A DNA stretch of 64,000 bases, from contig NZ_LT635450.1 in NCBI RefSeq assembly GCF_900120005.1, forward strand, positions 246,996 through 310,995. Direction: 5' to 3'. The translations under genes and the position numbers were made by a program. How positions within the stretch are numbered: the first letter of the stretch is position 1; every line of letters begins with the position of its first letter. Below the pieces are notes generated by a model. The model saw nothing but the letters and a program-made list of their open reading frames with translations, searched no databases and was not told the DNA's origin. Shown here piece by piece: positions 16,635-31,332 of this stretch. This DNA is from Holdemania sp. Marseille-P2844 (GTDB lineage: Bacteria; Bacillota_I; Bacilli_A; Erysipelotrichales; Erysipelotrichaceae).

Positions 16635-16908
16635 ACAACGTCCGCTGAACCCTTCCTTTCGTCTTCCGGTTGTTTCCTTTTTGACCTGTATTTTACTTTA
16701 TACCCTGAAATTATCGAATTTAATTAAAATTATTGATCATTTTCCGATCAATTTTCATTCTACGGATTTCCACGATCCGTTTACCGGAATTAAGCTTTTA
16801 TTCCTTATAAATTGCAGTATAATAAAAGTAACATCCTTTGTGTCCGGTAAGACTGAATCGGGCAAACGCCGCGCAGGCACCCGATTGATGGAAGAAAGCG
16901 GTATTGTT

Positions 16909-19667
16909 ATGAAAAACAATAAGATTTCGTATTCCACCCGTTTTTTGCTCATTCCTTTAATCCTCTCTTTAATCCTGACCGGGATTCTTTCGTTGTTCAC
17001 GATCCGCAATCTTCAAGGCAACGCCCGTGTCATTAACTATACCGGCATTGTGCGCGGCGCAACGCAGCGGCTGGTCAAACAGGAACTGAATCACCAGGCG
17101 GACGACGCGATGATTGAGAAAATCGACGGGCTGCTGAACGAACTGGAAACCGGCGAAGGTCCCGACGCTTTAATCCGTCTGGATGACAAAGCGTTCCAGG
17201 CTCAGATCAAACAGATGCGCAACGCCTGGGCGCAGATGAAAACCGCCATTTATGATTTCCGCAAAGGAGGTTCCGCCAGCGAACTTTATGCTCTGAGCGA
17301 AACCTATTTCGATCTGGCCAACGACGCTGTCAGCTATGCTGAAGCTTATACCGAGGCCAGCGTTCACAACGCCCAGATTTCTCTGCTTTTAGTCAATGTT
17401 TTTTTCCTGCTGATCACGCTTGTCTTGTTATATTTCAGTCATCTTCAGCACAAGCGGCAGAAACGTCTGGAACTGGAGGAACTGGAAACTCGCCGCAAAC
17501 AGGAGGAACTGGATCAGCTCAACCGGGAGCTGCAGGCTCCGATGAATGAAATCAGCGAGCTTATTTACATTTCCGATCCTGAAACCTATGAATTGTTATT
17601 TATCAATGAAAGCGGCCGCAAAGCCTTCAACATTGATTCGATCGAAGGAAAAAAATGTTACAAGGTCTTGCAGGGATTAGATCAGCCCTGCTCCTTCTGC
17701 ACCAACGCCGTCCTGAAAGAGAACGAAACATACAGCTGGGAAATCAATAATGCCCTGACCCATTGTCACTATCTGCTTAAAGACCGGCTCATCACCTGGA
17801 ACGGCCGGCGGGCACGGCTGGAAATCGCGTTTGACACGACCAAAAGCGAAGAAGAAAAACAACGCTTAAAAACGATGCTTGATAATGAAAAACTGATCGT
17901 GGACTGCGTTCGCGAGCTTTACGAGGATGAAATGCTCGAATCGGCGATTCCGGAAATGCTGCGCCGGCTGGGTGAATTCATGGAAGCGGAACGAATTACA
18001 CTGTTCTCCCTCAGTCCGGTCCGGCTGACGATTACCTCGCGCTGGTCCGCTGAGGGCGCTTCTGAAATTGAAATGCTTTCCGACCTGAAAGTCCGGCCGT
18101 TTTACAACCGCTGGCTGAAACGGCTGCGCGAGGATGAATCGTATGTCGTCGAAGATGTGGAGCAATTAAAAACACCGTTCCCAGAAGAATACAAGCTGCT
18201 TCACGCTTACGGCGTCCAGCAGCTGATCATTCTCTCCCTTGAGGTGCGCGGCGAAGTCGTCGACTGCATCTGCATCGACAATCCGGCTTCGGGCAAGCTG
18301 CAGAACTCGATCATCGTCTTGCAGACGCTGCGTTACTTCCTGCTTCTGGCCCGTCATCGCGCCATTGATAAAGCCAAGCTGGCGCAGCTCAGCTACACGG
18401 ACAGCCTGACCGGCCTGTTCAACCGCAACCGTTATATTCAGGACCTGGATAAAAAGATTTCAGCTCCGCAGCCGGTCGGCGTTCTGTTTGTCGATCTGAA
18501 CGGATTAAAAGAAATCAACGATCAGTTCGGGCATGACCGCGGCGATGAAGTCTGCGGACCTGTTCCGATCACCTGCGGGCCTGCTTCGCTCCGGATTCCT
18601 GCTACCGCATCGGCGGTGATGAATTCGTCGTTCTGACGCACGATTTATCCGAAGAAGAATTCTTCGATCAGGTGCATCATCTGCGGCTGCGGCTGCAGGA
18701 CAATACCAGGCTGCACTTGGCCGTCGGTACCCATTGGGCGCTCAGCGGTTCTCAGCTTCCTTCCGCCATCAAAGCCGCGGATGAAAAGATGTATAAAGAT
18801 AAAAAGGCTTATTATTACCATGCCTCGCAAACAGGACGCTACCGTCACCATACGGATGAAGTTCTGCCGTTAGCCAATTTGAATATCTTGCGTCAAAAGA
18901 TCAATGAAAGTCGCTTTCTCGTATACTTCCAGCCAAAAATTGCGATTGACTCCGGGCTTTTGGTCGGCGCTGAAGCGTTGGTCAGATATCAGCTGGACGA
19001 TAATTTAATCCTGGCTCCCAACGCCTTCATTCCGCTGCTGGAAGAAACGCAGACAATCAGTCAGATCGACTTCTTCGTCTTTGAGTTTGTGTGTCTGCGG
19101 CTGCAAAAATGGATTCATGAAGGTCGGGCAATATCGCCGGTTTCCGTTAACTTCTCACGCTACACCGTTCTGGAAGAGACGTTTTGCCAACGTCTGGCCG
19201 AGCTCAGCGATCACTATCAAATTGAACGGAATCTGTTGGAAATTGAAATCACTGAAAACGCGCTGGATGTTCGCGAAGAAGATCTGCGCAGGATCATTGA
19301 TACTGTGCGGCGCTTTGGATTCAGTGTGTCGATCGACGATTTCGGCGTTGAATTCTCCAATCTCTCGCTGTTTTCCGGGGCAGACTTCGACATTCTCAAG
19401 CTGGATCGCAGCTTGATTCAGGACATCGCCGTCAACGAAAAAGCGCGGGCACTCATCCAGGCGATGAGCGACGTCTGCCTGAAAATGAATATCAAGCTGG
19501 TAGCGGAAGGCGTAGAAACGGAAGAACAACTGAACATCTTGAATCAGTGTCATGTCAATATTGCGCAGGGCTTCCTGTTCTCCAAACCGATTCCCGTCGC
19601 CGATTATGAAACGAAATATTTGCCGCTTCCCGATGCAGATCTCAACGGCGGACAGGACAAATGTTAA
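16909..19667 (+). pseudogene. PAS-GAF-GGDEF-EAL cyclic di-GMP protein, split by one-base deletion near 18551
   Basis: The first frame (16909-18636) encodes a membrane helix, a PilJ/NIT-like outside sensor (VINYTGIVRGATQRLVKQ), a second helix (about 155-175), a coiled coil, a PAS domain with PCSFC, a GAF-like region and the first half of GGDEF (YTDSLTGLFNRNR, LFVDLNGLKEINDQFGH). It then runs out of frame after GDEV. The third-position frame continues as LRTCSDHLRACF...CYRIGGDEFVVL and then a full EAL domain to 19667 (EALVRY, NFSRYTVLE, EITENAL, IDDFGVEFS, LKLDRSLI, AEGVETEEQL, IAQGFLFSKP). Adding one C after GTC at 18551 restores about 919 residues. Intact, it could both make and cleave cyclic di-GMP. 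A start at 16888 is also possible. Confidence 0.88.
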
Positions 19668-20771: not shown

Positions 20772-20849
20772 TTTCATAGTTAAGCCGGAGAACTTCTTTT
20801 CCCCTCACAAATCCAATCTATTTCAATCATAAGAACGGATGTGAACAAT

Positions 20850-22697
20850 ATGCAGAGAAAAAGCTGGAAGAACAGCTCGCTGCTGCTTCTTGGAACCGCA
20901 GTATTCGCAGGTCTTGTTTTCATACTATTCAGCACTTATCAAAGCTGGCTGAACGTCAAGTTTGAGCAGCAGATCATGGAAAACTACACCGCCTACATTG
21001 AGAGCGAAGGCGCGCAGTTTTCAGGAGCGCTCAGCGATATCGAGGGAACGCTTCAAACGCTGGCCGCATTGCTTTCCCAACAGCCGCAAACTCCGGATCA
21101 GGCGGAACTTGAGCCGGCGCTGAGGTTGTTGTCCGCGCAAAATGCTCATTTTAATGTTCAGATGCGAACACCTTCAGAAATGTCGTTAACTCCAATCCAA
21201 AGGAAACTGCTGGAACACAACGAGACAGTTGTCACTTCAATGGAAACGTCCAATTCCGGAGGTTCCTTTCTGCGCGTTCTGATCCCCATACTTCATCATT
21301 CGCAAATCGACGGCATCCTTGAGGCCTCGGTCGATGTGACTCAGCTGCTTCAGAAAAGTCAGTCGCAGCGGATTCAGACGCCGTTAAACAGCTGGATCGT
21401 GGAATCCGACGGTTCCAGCGTCTATACCAGAAACGCAAACGAGAGCGCTTATGTCAATCTCTACGCGCTGATCGAAGGCAATCCCAATTCGGAAACCACG
21501 CGGCAGCAGGTCCGCGCCTGCCTGCAGGCAGGCAATTCCGGTACGTTCCGGGTTCAAACACGGCAGGAAGGGACGCTGTACGTATCGCTGACCCCGCTGA
21601 AGACCGGCGGCTGGACGCTGGTAAATTTCACCCAGGCTAATGAAGCCTCTGAGAACTCGCAGATGATTCTGCTTTTCACAATGCGGATCGGGTTATTCCT
21701 GATTCTGACAACCGCCGCCATGGCTTATCTGGTTTACGTGCTCCTCGCACGCCAGCGCCGTCAGATCAATCTCGAACAACGCCGCTACACCTTCCTCTCA
21801 CGGTTTTCCGACACGTTGATTTTTGAGTATGACGTCTTGGAGGATATGCTGGAACTGACCGGCAACGCTCAGAAAATTCTGCCGGTCAAAGAACTCTCGG
21901 CCAGACATGTGAAAAAGAACCATGCGTTGACGCCGTTTATTCATGCCGAAGATTTTTACAAGATTGAGGAAGCCTTCAAGACTGTCCACCGCTTTCAGGA
22001 ATTCGGTTCCGTTGAGCTGCGGATCAAAACCCGCGACGGCAGCTATCATTGGTTCAACTGTCAATTTCAGGCCGTTTATGAACGTTATCACCGCGATCCG
22101 GTGATGATCATCGGCAAGCTGACTGATATTCAGGAACAGAAGCATATTGAGCGTCAGCTGATCGAGGAATCAAGCTGCGATGGCCTGACCTCCGTTTTAA
22201 ACAAGAAAGCCGTTGAACGCCGGATTCGTGAAGAACTGAGCGAGAAGACGGAAGGTTGTCTGCTCATGATCGATCTCGACGATTTTAAAATCATCAACGA
22301 CGAACTGGGACATGTTGCCGGGGATCAGGTATTGGCAGCCATCGGCGTTTTATTAAAAACCTGCTTCCGCCAGAATGATTTGATCGGCAGGATCGGCGGC
22401 GATGAATTCGTCGTCTTCCTTCATTCCATTAATCCGACGGTGATCCATCAAAAAGTAAAACAAATCAACAAGACCTTGCCCAAGCTGCTGCATCGGGAAC
22501 AGATTCCGGCCGTGGTTACGCTGAGTATCGGCGCGGCCATCAGCCGTCCGGGCGATACCTATCGGCAACTGTTCAGCCGGGCTGATCAGGCGATGTACTG
22601 CGCCAAGCAGCGGGGGAAGAATCAATTTCATCTGGAAGTTTCGTCCGCCGAAAGTGCTCGGGAAAAAGAGCCGGCGGAAATAAAAACTCCCCGATAA
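20850..22697 (+). CDS. Cache-PAS-GGDEF diguanylate cyclase
   Basis: About 615 residues. A membrane helix (about 10-28) and a second (about 273-296) flank an outside sensor of Cache type (LEASVDVTQLLQKSQ, TLYVSLTPLKTGGWTLVNF). A cytoplasmic PAS domain follows (FEYDVLEDMLELTGNA to WFNCQFQAVYER and IGKLTDIQEQK), then GGDEF (CDGLTSVLNKKAVERR, IDLDDFKIINDELGHVAGDQV). The active site GGDEF is intact at about residue 516, and RQND five residues before it is a proper RxxD inhibitory site, so feedback control by cyclic di-GMP is likely. GTG at 20841 is an alternative start. Only 1.2 kb separates it from the split GGDEF-EAL gene. Confidence 0.92.
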   Translation: MQRKSWKNSSLLLLGTAVFAGLVFILFSTYQSWLNVKFEQQIMENYTAYIESEGAQFSGALSDIEGTLQTLAALLSQQPQTPDQAELEPALRLLSAQNAHFNVQMRTPSEMSLTPIQRKLLEHNETVVTSMETSNSGGSFLRVLIPILHHSQIDGILEASVDVTQLLQKSQSQRIQTPLNSWIVESDGSSVYTRNANESAYVNLYALIEGNPNSETTRQQVRACLQAGNSGTFRVQTRQEGTLYVSLTPLKTGGWTLVNFTQANEASENSQMILLFTMRIGLFLILTTAAMAYLVYVLLARQRRQINLEQRRYTFLSRFSDTLIFEYDVLEDMLELTGNAQKILPVKELSARHVKKNHALTPFIHAEDFYKIEEAFKTVHRFQEFGSVELRIKTRDGSYHWFNCQFQAVYERYHRDPVMIIGKLTDIQEQKHIERQLIEESSCDGLTSVLNKKAVERRIREELSEKTEGCLLMIDLDDFKIINDELGHVAGDQVLAAIGVLLKTCFRQNDLIGRIGGDEFVVFLHSINPTVIHQKVKQINKTLPKLLHREQIPAVVTLSIGAAISRPGDTYRQLFSRADQAMYCAKQRGKNQFHLEVSSAESAREKEPAEIKTPR

Positions 22698-27095: not shown

Positions 27096-30047
27096 ATGAA
27101 AGTTAAAAAACAATCCGTCGCTTTCATCCTGGGGATGATCGTGCTGCTGGCAGGGACCGGCACGCTGATGATCACGGCGATGCGCGAAATCAAGGTTAAA
27201 ATGAACGTCAGCGCCAACACGACGCTGCTCAACACCACGCGGATGATCTCCGACAGCCTGCTCAATAATTTTTCAAGCGATCAGCAGCAGCTGGAAACCT
27301 GCGCAAATCTGTTCAGCCGGATCGATCTTGAACAGCCGGAAGACGTCGTTCGGGCATTGGCGGAATATACCGAAGCAACGTCCTTTTTCCGTTTTTATTT
27401 CGTCAATGACGAAGGTGTGGGCTGGGATTCGACCGGCGCAAAGCTGACGCTTGAGGAAATGAGCTTTGACGATACCGCGCTGAGCGAGGGGAAAGCGGGT
27501 TATTCCGACGCTTATCTCGGCGCCAGCGGCCGTTTGCAGATCACATTCCAGACGCCGCTGCGGATCAACGGCCAACTTGCGGGCGCCTTGTATGCGGATA
27601 AAACAATGTCGAATTATCACAGTCCGTCGTTGTTCACATTCAACGGCGTGGCCGGCAGCGCCTACGTCGTTCAGGGTGAGGACGGAGCGTGGATCATCGA
27701 CAGCTCCGCAAGCAATACAGACAACCTGTACGTTTTTCTTGGCAAGCAAAACAACGAACCGGCCGTCCTGGACAAGCTGAGAACGCTGATAGCGGACAAC
27801 CGGTCGGGAACGATCCGGATTCAATACCATCAACAGAACAGCTTTCTCTGCTTCATCCCGCTGAACGCCAGTCATCACTGGTACTTAATTTCGATTCTGC
27901 CGCAGAATATCCTGCAGCAGGAGTCGGCGGAAGTTCTGCAGGTGATCTCCTTTGCCCTGGCCGGGTTGTTAGTCGCGCTGGTTTTAATCACGCTGCTCTT
28001 ACTGAGCCGCCAGGCCTCCAGCAGCCGCGAACAGGAGCGCAAACGCCGCGAACAACTGTTCCAGATCATTTCTGAAAATGTCGACTTTGCCTTTCTCTTA
28101 TATACGCCGTCCAGGCGGAAAGTGGAAATGCTTTCGGAGAATGTCCGCTTTTTATTCAACATTGAAACAAAAGAAGCCGTTGACCATCCGGAACGTTTGT
28201 TTCTGAGCTGCGGGATGCCGCCGCAGGATCCGGCCGGTCATGCGTTTCTCAACGGCGAGCTGACCCAGCGGCTGCGTTATGAATATCAGACCGGTACTGA
28301 AAACAAGCTTCAGCGCTGGATTGAGATTTATTTCATTCCCGTTCACAGCGATCAATATCTCGCCGTCCTGCACGAAACGACGGCTGAGCATCACATGCGT
28401 CAGGATCTGGCCGACGCCCTGCAGCAGTCGCAGGAAAGCAATCAGGCCCGAACTGTCTTTTTCTCCTCGATGTCGCACGATATCCGTACGCCGATGAACG
28501 GAATTATCGGCATGACGACCATCGCTCAGTCGCACCTGGACGAACCGGAAAAAGTCGCGCATTGTCTGGATAAAATCAGTCTCGCTTCGCAGCATCTGCT
28601 CGATCTGATCAACGAAGTCCTCGACATGTCGCGGATTGAAAGCGGCAAGATCAGTTTAAAAAAAGAACCCGTCAATCTGTCCCGGCTGATCTCCGACGTG
28701 CTGGTTCTGGTCAAGCCGGACCTGACGAAGAAACGCCAGACGCTGCATATCCGCTCAAGCGCGCTGGATTATGACACGGTGATCGGCGATACGCTGCACC
28801 TGCAGAAAATCTTATTGAACCTGTTGTCCAACGCCGTCAAATACACTCCGCCGCAGCAAGATATCACCATCGGGATCCATGAAGAAGCCGGCGTTGACGA
28901 TAAAATCAACGTGATTTTCACCGTAGAAGACACCGGGATCGGCATGACGCCGGAATTCCTCAATCGGATCTTCACCCCGTTTGAGCGGGCGCAGGACAGC
29001 CGCATCAGTCAGATCACCGGCACCGGTTTAGGCATGGCGATCACCAAGAACATCGTCGACATGATGGCGGGAACCATTCAGGTGGAAAGCCAGGTTGGCG
29101 TAGGTTCCAAATTCACGGTAACGCTGCCGTTTACGACCACACAGACAACGCAGACAAAAAAAGTTCCGCTGGCCGGCTGTTCCGTGCTGGTAGTGGACGA
29201 TGATCCCGACACCTGCGAAGGTCTGCGGATGATGCTGGAACGTGAAAATGTCCAGGTCCGCTGCGCCTACACCGGCCAGCAGGGAATTGACGCCGCGCTG
29301 CTGGCACATCAGGAAGGCCATGATTATCTGGGAATCATCATGGATTGGAGAATGGAAGGTCTTAACGGGATTGAGGCTGCGCGTCAAATCCGCGCCCGGA
29401 TTCCTTCAGAGATTCCGATCATTCTGCTTTCCGCTTACAACTGGGAAGACGTCGAACAGGAAGCGCTGGATGCCGGCATTAACGGATTTTTAACGAAGCC
29501 GATTTTCCGGAGCGAATTGATTGAAAAACTCTCCGACGCTCTCATTCAGGTCAAAGAGGGAACGCCGGCGCTCAGCGATACCGCCCTCAGCTGGCCGGCT
29601 GAGGATTTCAGCGGGATGCGTGTTCTCTTAGCGGAAGATAACGAGCTGAACCGCGAAATTGTCATCGAACTGTTAAACGGCTGCGGAATTCAGGTGATCT
29701 GCGCGCATAATGGACAACAGGCGCTCGATCTTGTCCGCCAACAGCCGGAAGACGCTTTCGATCTCATCCTGATGGATATCCACATGCCGGAAATGAATGG
29801 CTATCAGGCTACCGCGGCCATCCGTTCGCTGCCGGATGCGGCGAAGGCCGGACTGCCGATCATCGCGATGACGGCCGACGCTTTTGACGAAGACGTCCAG
29901 AAATGCATGGCTGCCGGCATGAATGGACACATTGCCAAGCCGATTCAGTATCCATTACTTTTTGAAACGCTCCGCCGCTACCAGCCCTTTGAACAAAGAC
30001 CTGCGACATCAAGAAACGAGGAGAACAACCATGACCATCAAAACTAA
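27096..30047 (+). CDS. Hybrid sensor histidine kinase with two receiver domains
   Basis: About 983 residues. An N-terminal helix and a second at about 288-308 enclose an outside dCache-like sensor (FRFYFVNDEGVGWDSTG, AGALYADKTMSNY, YLISILPQNIL). The kinase core has H-box FSSMSHDIRTPMNG (His about 461), N-box LLNLLSNAVKYTP, and ATP-lid motifs VEDTGIGM and GTGLGMAI. Two receivers follow: VLVVDDDPDT with phospho-Asp in IIMDWRM (about 748), and VLLAEDNELN with phospho-Asp in LILMDIHMPEMNG (about 893). There is no DNA-binding output, so the phosphate goes elsewhere. The ATG at 27096 has AAGG 8 bases upstream and is preferred over TTG 27075 and ATG 27081. Its 3' end overlaps the next gene by 17 bases. 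Confidence 0.93.
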   Translation: MKVKKQSVAFILGMIVLLAGTGTLMITAMREIKVKMNVSANTTLLNTTRMISDSLLNNFSSDQQQLETCANLFSRIDLEQPEDVVRALAEYTEATSFFRFYFVNDEGVGWDSTGAKLTLEEMSFDDTALSEGKAGYSDAYLGASGRLQITFQTPLRINGQLAGALYADKTMSNYHSPSLFTFNGVAGSAYVVQGEDGAWIIDSSASNTDNLYVFLGKQNNEPAVLDKLRTLIADNRSGTIRIQYHQQNSFLCFIPLNASHHWYLISILPQNILQQESAEVLQVISFALAGLLVALVLITLLLLSRQASSSREQERKRREQLFQIISENVDFAFLLYTPSRRKVEMLSENVRFLFNIETKEAVDHPERLFLSCGMPPQDPAGHAFLNGELTQRLRYEYQTGTENKLQRWIEIYFIPVHSDQYLAVLHETTAEHHMRQDLADALQQSQESNQARTVFFSSMSHDIRTPMNGIIGMTTIAQSHLDEPEKVAHCLDKISLASQHLLDLINEVLDMSRIESGKISLKKEPVNLSRLISDVLVLVKPDLTKKRQTLHIRSSALDYDTVIGDTLHLQKILLNLLSNAVKYTPPQQDITIGIHEEAGVDDKINVIFTVEDTGIGMTPEFLNRIFTPFERAQDSRISQITGTGLGMAITKNIVDMMAGTIQVESQVGVGSKFTVTLPFTTTQTTQTKKVPLAGCSVLVVDDDPDTCEGLRMMLERENVQVRCAYTGQQGIDAALLAHQEGHDYLGIIMDWRMEGLNGIEAARQIRARIPSEIPIILLSAYNWEDVEQEALDAGINGFLTKPIFRSELIEKLSDALIQVKEGTPALSDTALSWPAEDFSGMRVLLAEDNELNREIVIELLNGCGIQVICAHNGQQALDLVRQQPEDAFDLILMDIHMPEMNGYQATAAIRSLPDAAKAGLPIIAMTADAFDEDVQKCMAAGMNGHIAKPIQYPLLFETLRRYQPFEQRPATSRNEENNHDHQN

Positions 30048-31332
30048 ATTACGCAAAGCGGCGGCCGCGCTGACGGCCCTCTGCCTGATCGCCGGCTGTA
30101 CCACCAAACCGAAAGACCCGGAAGTTTACATCGACGATAAAAATGAAGAAATCGTGCTCACCCTGTTCGCTCAGGGAGAGGTCGTTGCCAACCTGATTCA
30201 GCAATGCTTCAATGAAGTGATCAACCGCAAGCAGGAAAAAACATTTATTCTTTACAGCGACAGCGCCTCCTTTTACGCAGACGAAGGACTCTCTTACCGC
30301 GAGCTACTGTTAAAAAGACTGGAAAGCGGCGAAGCGGACGATCTGTTTATCATTCCCGCCGAAGACGTGCTGGAATTTGACCGTAAAGGTTATCTCTATG
30401 ATCTTTCCGATATGGATTTCATCCACAATCTGTCCGCCGATGCGCTGCAGCAAAGCACCTATGACAACAAGGTATTCTCACTGCCGCTGTCTTATACGGC
30501 GTTCGGCTTGTTATGGAATGTCGATCTGCTTCATCAGTACGATCTGGAAGTTCCGCAGACACTATCTGAATTTCTGACTGTCTGCGAAACACTGAAACAA
30601 AACGGCATCGTCCCTTATGGCGCAAACATGGATTACGGCCTCAGCATTCTGGCGATGTGCACCGGGCTGGCGCCGTTGTACAGAGACGCGGACAAAACAC
30701 AGAAACTGGCGCAGCTGGCTGAAGGAACATTGCCGATCAGCCATTATCTGCGCGACGGATTCACATTCTTAAAAATGATGATTGATCAAGGTTATCTGGA
30801 CATTGAGCAGGCACTGAACACACAGCCCAACAGCGAGGAAGAAGCCGGCCGGTTCCGCGATGGTCAATGCGCGTTCATCAGCGCCTTTTGCCGGGCCGCC
30901 ACTTTCTCCAGCGATTACCATTTCGAAGTCGTCATGACCGCATTGCCGGTTCTGGAAGAAGGCTCAATCTGCGTTGTCGGCGCGGATCAGCGGCTGGCTG
31001 TCAATCCCAATTCAAAACATTTAAAAGAAGCGCTGATCACAGTTGAAACGCTGGGTACTGTTGAAACGCTCAATGAATTCGCGAAGATGCTGGGCAAAAC
31101 CTCACCAGCCCGCGGCAACGAAGCTTCGACTTTGCCGCAGGCCGCGCCGCTGGTTGCCAGTCTGGCAGAAGCCGAACAAATTCCCAATCAGGATTTCTCG
31201 CTGCATTTCAACACCTGGAATACAATTAAGGAATTGTGCGTTAAGCTGGGACAAGGGGAAAGTATTGACGCCCTGTGCGATGAATATGACAAGATTCAGC
31301 TTGAGGAAATTGAAACCTATCAAGGACAGTAA
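30031..31332 (+). CDS. Extracellular solute-binding lipoprotein (family 1 type)
   Basis: 433 residues beginning with a lipoprotein signal whose lipobox is IAGC (Cys about 21). The body shows the family 1 sugar-binding pattern: residues of a Venus-flytrap domain with ESGEADDLFIIPAEDVLEF, GYLYDLSDMDF, KVFSLPLSYTAFGLLWNVDLLHQY and PQTLSEFLTVCETLKQNGIVPYGA. No ABC permease or ATPase genes are nearby. Its start lies inside the 3' end of the sensor kinase with a GAGGAG site, so the two proteins are made together. It may therefore serve as a ligand-presenting partner of the kinase rather than as a transporter subunit, which is inference. A longer upstream frame exists but overlaps the kinase gene. 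Confidence 0.85.
   Translation: MTIKTKLRKAAAALTALCLIAGCTTKPKDPEVYIDDKNEEIVLTLFAQGEVVANLIQQCFNEVINRKQEKTFILYSDSASFYADEGLSYRELLLKRLESGEADDLFIIPAEDVLEFDRKGYLYDLSDMDFIHNLSADALQQSTYDNKVFSLPLSYTAFGLLWNVDLLHQYDLEVPQTLSEFLTVCETLKQNGIVPYGANMDYGLSILAMCTGLAPLYRDADKTQKLAQLAEGTLPISHYLRDGFTFLKMMIDQGYLDIEQALNTQPNSEEEAGRFRDGQCAFISAFCRAATFSSDYHFEVVMTALPVLEEGSICVVGADQRLAVNPNSKHLKEALITVETLGTVETLNEFAKMLGKTSPARGNEASTLPQAAPLVASLAEAEQIPNQDFSLHFNTWNTIKELCVKLGQGESIDALCDEYDKIQLEEIETYQGQ

Follow-up and report, generated by a model that had tools for sequence, protein, structure and literature searches.

Why would the gene of a sugar-type solute-binding lipoprotein overlap that of a sensor kinase and have no transporter beside it? 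We put this question to two genes in a 64,000-nucleotide stretch of the Holdemania sp. Marseille-P2844 genome (3.68 Mb in all), positions 246996-310995 of contig NZ_LT635450.1 (hereafter C13), which we call the window. They encode a hybrid histidine kinase with a double-Cache (dCache) ectodomain and a solute-binding protein (SBP) of the SBP_bac_8 family, whose closest named relatives are those of Holdemania massiliensis and H. filiformis (78-79% identity). A preliminary description had taken the two for a signalling unit, a reading now supported by the conserved pairing of the genes and by the co-divergence of the lipoprotein with the ectodomain. In our view the SBP is very probably a signalling and not an importing protein, one that docks on the dCache kinase and feeds a relay to cyclic di-GMP (c-di-GMP) turnover; judged by its joint inheritance with the membrane sensor in dozens of relatives, the lipoprotein is probably the "nose" of the sensor rather than part of a sugar importer.

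Evaluating the locus itself, we found both genes where the preliminary description had placed them, with the 17-base overlap that it had reported; this overlap likely brings translational coupling, and the Shine-Dalgarno sequence of the SBP gene is strong. The reported lack of an ATP-binding cassette (ABC) permease nearby also held, as PF00528 has no match on the whole contig, leaving the pair with no adjacent importer, and the sole ABC importer recognised in the window is of the branched-chain-amino-acid type, lies 16-20 kb off and has its own Peripla_BP_6 protein. Consistent with the earlier account of a kinase with two receivers and no output domain, a Pfam scan returned HisKA, HATPase_c and two Response_reg domains only. 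Downstream of the pair, a consensus scan for terminators and promoters gave matches no more numerous than in shuffled sequence.

To evaluate the pairing across relatives, we ran an SBP profile against one genome per species, a query that picks the SBP family and not its neighbours, and inspected all 50 loci found (in Bacillota and two metagenome-assembled genomes labelled as other phyla) with domain models built for the analysis. A same-strand receptor with an ectodomain of the same family adjoined the SBP in 49 of them, mostly overlapping it or no more than 30 bp away; 41 scored as kinases, 2 as single-frame GGDEF-EAL proteins, and 6 were receptors that a contig end truncates, that are split between frames or whose output gene is a separate one. 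The preliminary description had proposed a search for such pairs and would have given up its reading had homologues lain beside permeases or unpaired; permeases appeared at a single locus (L139), the lone ordinary ABC operon. Across relatives the family is thus receptor-paired and not permease-paired, the pattern of an SBP-activated receptor. Among 315 whole genomes of the order Erysipelotrichales, all 13 SBP matches above 500 bits were paired, and the next four (112-124 bits) lay in ABC operons with permeases and a YesM-type kinase. Gene order varies, with the receptor leading in one clade and the SBP in another, and this inversion argues against passive linkage.

Some of these loci had features of their own. 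The two metagenome-assembled genomes, labelled Bilophila (L117) and Gordonibacter (L131), reflect either gene transfer beyond Bacillota or contigs binned wrongly, and an apparent SBP-receptor fusion in L131 was rejected because the long open reading frame (ORF) is merely an open frame in 67% GC DNA, with the SBP in another frame. At two loci (L033, L097) the SBP accompanies a dCache-only membrane protein and a separate GGDEF-EAL protein, which together make a split receptor. At two Diplocloster loci (L118, L120) the pair has for neighbours an AraC gene and a sugar ABC operon equipped with an SBP of its own, a possible target.

Not only do the two genes stay together, their products also diverge together. 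Tree distances of the SBP and the dCache domain correlated at r = 0.956 (51 pairs); among the 41 kinase pairs the SBP-dCache correlation was 0.951, compared with 0.67 for SBP and kinase core and 0.80 for dCache and kinase core. Controlling for the kinase core left a partial SBP-dCache r of 0.93, and bootstrap intervals of the correlation differences excluded zero. This is the co-evolution expected of SBP and ectodomain, with a contrast that is weaker within one clade, and we read the two as the conserved unit.

The members of this unit are of recognisable kinds. An AlphaFold2 model of the kinase ectodomain from the family alignment (pLDDT 91.2, pTM 0.80) resembled double-Cache domains from both chemoreceptors and kinases (Z up to 19), the best structural match being the PctD dCache (VIA Z 19.0, 250 residues aligned, rmsd 3.2), such that a tandem Cache fold flanked by two transmembrane (TM) helices is predicted. 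The Cache-like outside domain of the preliminary description is therefore a double Cache by structure prediction, though Pfam alone misses it, giving no Cache call in the window kinase and merely sub-threshold dCache_1 matches in some relatives. The SBP matches SBP_bac_8/SBP_bac_1 in Pfam (PF13416, 2.5e-15, over the cut-off), aligns with RafE by profile comparison (E 2.5e-30) and, as a model made in the same way (pLDDT 91.0), has RafE as its top Foldseek match (E 1.6e-20, TM 0.74-0.78) along with other oligosaccharide-binding proteins. Profile and fold both place it among the sugar-type SBPs (SBP_bac_1/8, RafE/MalE-like), and from the fold we take its small ligand to be most likely an oligosaccharide.

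Where would the signal go? In several relatives (L037-L039, L042, L109, L131) the SBP and dCache unit is joined to GGDEF-EAL instead of a kinase half. In two others, L040 (genome G009) and L041 (G069), a histidine phosphotransfer (HPt) protein, a REC-HD-GYP protein, the kinase and the SBP are encoded by four overlapping genes, as seen with HPt and HD-GYP search models derived from the window genome's own proteins, the L041 HPt falling slightly under the Pfam cut-off. In Hungatella hathewayi WAL-18680 (L101) an HPt gene separates the SBP from another hybrid kinase, beside a REC-GGDEF-EAL-REC-GGDEF protein. A hybrid kinase with two receivers should require an HPt, and the earlier suggestion to look for an orphan response regulator or HPt proved productive: on contig C11 of the window genome (311.7-314.2 kb) an HPt gene (HTLKG motif) immediately precedes a REC-HD-GYP-GGDEF gene, an arrangement kept in the two other Holdemania and in genomes G081, G083 and G086, with a REC-HD-GYP part 47% identical to those of L040 and L041. 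HPt genes occur widely, in 85 of 309 genomes, and act with other kinases as well, so we did not use their co-occurrence as a statistical test.

Taken together, these observations suggest a relay. The lipoprotein would bind a small ligand, by its fold most likely a saccharide or oligosaccharide, outside the membrane, and would dock on the double-Cache ectodomain of the co-transcribed kinase, altering kinase autophosphorylation. As the kinase ends in two receivers and lacks an output domain, the phosphate would pass to a separate HPt protein and from there to a response regulator, most likely from the C11 HPt to REC-HD-GYP-GGDEF with a resulting change in c-di-GMP. Whether the relay runs through this particular HPt we regard as evenly balanced; as the genome encodes one more HPt and several other hybrid kinases, the assignment is a prediction. 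Since HPt/REC-HD-GYP operons and GGDEF-EAL receptor outputs both occur in relatives, c-di-GMP would be the common end point, and the signal most likely ends in a c-di-GMP lifestyle switch.

Several points weigh against this reading. Docking is a step that we infer from conserved association, and the HPt/response regulator module sits on another contig than the pair, in a genome where the other hybrid kinases and the second HPt make the choice of partner tentative; its HPt shares only 23% identity with the HPt encoded in the L040 operon. The co-divergence excess, large over the whole tree, is small in the SBP-first clade (0.93 against 0.87 and 0.92), so that it stems from the deep history, in which the cytoplasmic half was also exchanged; the tree of the kinase core carries more noise (half-half r = 0.84-0.89). 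Some members, such as the few that adjoin sugar ABC operons (L118, L120), may regulate transport.

These last loci, with their AraC-type gene, would also fit a relay in which the SBP docks on the kinase and the phosphate ends in a DNA-binding response regulator that induces sugar-uptake genes, as in CuaD-CuaS-CuaR; a known clostridial SBP-kinase system governs uptake genes (PMC10384115), and the window genome has many REC domains (37 matches). We think such an ending unlikely, as neither the window nor most relatives have a DNA-binding regulator next to the pair, this hybrid kinase has no simple cognate regulator, and the relatives described above carry GGDEF-EAL on the receptor or REC-HD-GYP and HPt in the operon. 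That the Cache domain of the kinase itself detects the ligand, with the SBP merely sharpening the response or competing for that ligand, is less probable again and in our judgement quite doubtful. The structural matches include dCache domains, which often bind small ligands themselves, and the two-component CuaSR of Ruminiclostridium cellulolyticum is reported to respond still without its SBP (PMC10384115); SBP pairing, however, is near-universal in the family, and the dCache_1AA amino-acid-binding motif pattern was absent in 46 of 46 aligned ectodomains.

The SBP could instead be an orphan importer component, merely co-transcribed with the kinase and serving a permease encoded elsewhere. It does have the fold of sugar-import SBPs (RafE, MalE), and sugar-type permeases exist in the genome, but we find this scarcely credible when receptors adjoin nearly all homologues, the SBP co-diverges with the receptor ectodomain, and most other SBP_bac_8 proteins of the genome have permeases of their own (four of five, the remaining one lying by another GGDEF-EAL receptor). 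We thus retain a signalling SBP that docks on the kinase as the preferred reading.

Features of the SBP/kinase pair, with a second receptor pair of the same contig (window positions unless stated)
Feature	Position	Strand	Basis
dCache hybrid histidine kinase, 983 aa; TM - double Cache - TM - PAS-like linker - HisKA - HATPase_c - REC - REC	27096..30047	+	ORF, Pfam, structure
Predicted extracytoplasmic double-Cache domain, about aa 30-278, between two predicted TM helices	27183..27929	+	AlphaFold2, structural match
HisKA dimerisation/phospho-acceptor domain, H in SHDIRTP	28449..28646	+	PF00512, aa 452-517
HATPase_c catalytic domain	28785..29135	+	PF02518, aa 564-680
Receiver domain 1, D in IIMDW	29184..29531 (C13:276179-276526)	+	PF00072
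Receiver domain 2, D in LILMDI	29622..29972 (C13:276617-276967)	+	PF00072
Shine-Dalgarno GAGGAG of SBP gene, inside kinase coding sequence	30018..30023	+	Read from sequence
SBP_bac_8 solute-binding lipoprotein, 433 aa, RafE/MalE-like fold	30031..31332	+	ORF, Pfam, AlphaFold2, Foldseek
Kinase/SBP gene overlap, 17 bp	30031..30047	+	Sequence
Lipobox LIAGC, lipidated Cys23	30085..30099	+	Cys23 invariant in 13-member alignment
Second SBP/GGDEF-EAL receptor pair	C13:215.4-219.9 kb (L175:1360-5896), about 27-32 kb upstream of window start		

The wider genome holds further c-di-GMP genes. The fifth of the other SBP_bac_8 proteins, a lipoprotein (C13:218.4-219.9 kb), has a gene overlapping that of a GGDEF-EAL membrane receptor of 1019 aa, and a homologue of the outer part of that receptor adjoins this SBP in 12 of 12 Erysipelotrichales genomes, with no sugar-type permease in the stretch covered, so that SBP-fed c-di-GMP receptors seem to recur in the order. 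The preliminary description had proposed c-di-GMP proteins encoded nearby as a possible output of the kinase; these are less likely partners than the HPt/REC-HD-GYP module of contig C11. We do not favour the genes at 16.7-22.7 kb of the window as the cognate output, given that neither has a receiver and that the GGDEF-EAL gene at 16681-19667 (16681-18636 and 18672-19667) has an in-frame interruption within its GGDEF domain, the Pfam GGDEF match ending at position 58 of 161 and EAL lying in the next ORF. This gene may be non-functional, and the interruption marks either a sequencing error or a pseudogene. The other gene (20841-22697) encodes a membrane protein with dCache-like, PAS and GGDEF domains and lies upstream of the pair in both other Holdemania genomes too. 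Elsewhere, a cluster at C10:34.5-45.3 kb (L078), conserved in G003 (L168), encodes two large multi-PAS hybrid kinases, an HPt and a REC-GGDEF-EAL-REC-GGDEF protein, and is apparently another complete relay to c-di-GMP.

Most SBP genes of gut Bacillota are annotated as parts of sugar transport, and this family predicts that some of them encode signal receptors and names the receptor partner. In the Erysipelotrichales the family points to a whole relay that can be put to the test (SBP to dCache hybrid kinase to HPt to REC-HD-GYP to c-di-GMP), and it opens to experiment the question of which glycans, from the diet or the host, set c-di-GMP in common gut bacteria with little-studied lifestyle switches. 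More broadly, we see the case for and against the following as equal: that an SBP and dCache sensing module has long been kept across gut Bacillota while its cytoplasmic half was swapped between hybrid kinase and GGDEF-EAL, and that all versions may converge on c-di-GMP, by direct synthesis or degradation or through HPt and REC-HD-GYP, forming a broad sugar-to-c-di-GMP family joined in Erysipelotrichales by the second, separate SBP/GGDEF-EAL receptor family.

The principle of an SBP-activated receptor is already known (NspS-MbaA, CuaD-CuaS, XylFII-LytS, LuxP-LuxQ), and we found no publication on this SBP/dCache pair family in the open-licence full-text papers searched. LuxP-LuxQ of Vibrio follows the same plan as the window pair, an SBP with a hybrid histidine kinase that signals via an HPt; LuxP is a type I binding protein, however, and the window SBP is of the SBP_bac_8 family, and LuxQ has one receiver where the window kinase has two. 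That kinase scored below the cut-offs of both the LuxQ equivalog NF041947 (301.7 bits, cut-off 1200) and the TorS model TIGR02956 (342.2, cut-off 676.5). XylFII of Clostridium belongs to the type I binding proteins and binds xylose, and LytS and YesN form a simple two-component pair. In the solved complex XylFII docks on the ectodomain of LytS, two SBPs with two ectodomains (PMC10384115, PMC9602780), and the second, a survey, likewise describes SBP-activated receptors as widespread (PMC9602780). In CuaD-CuaS-CuaR of R. cellulolyticum the SBP binds to its kinase and enhances the sensing of sugar, and the CuaS ectodomain alone is reported to have shown no ligand binding by calorimetry (PMC10384115). 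There too a clostridial SBP gene lies by a sensor kinase gene, but the YesN/AraC-type CuaR is encoded alongside and controls a cellobiose ABC operon, whereas the window kinase is a two-receiver hybrid and no AraC-type response regulator adjoins the pair in the window or at the same-genus loci L031 and L032. NspS-MbaA of Vibrio cholerae, also present in Sinorhizobium, is an SBP that activates a membrane receptor controlling c-di-GMP (PMC8967002). It resembles the relatives with GGDEF-EAL on the receptor and differs from the window pair, whose receptor is HisKA-HATPase-REC-REC, whose SBP is of the sugar type where NspS binds polyamines, and whose hosts are Gram-positive, with a lipoprotein as SBP. 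What seems new here is the pairing of a sugar-type SBP and a dCache receptor in which the output half has been exchanged, together with a candidate HPt/REC-HD-GYP relay.

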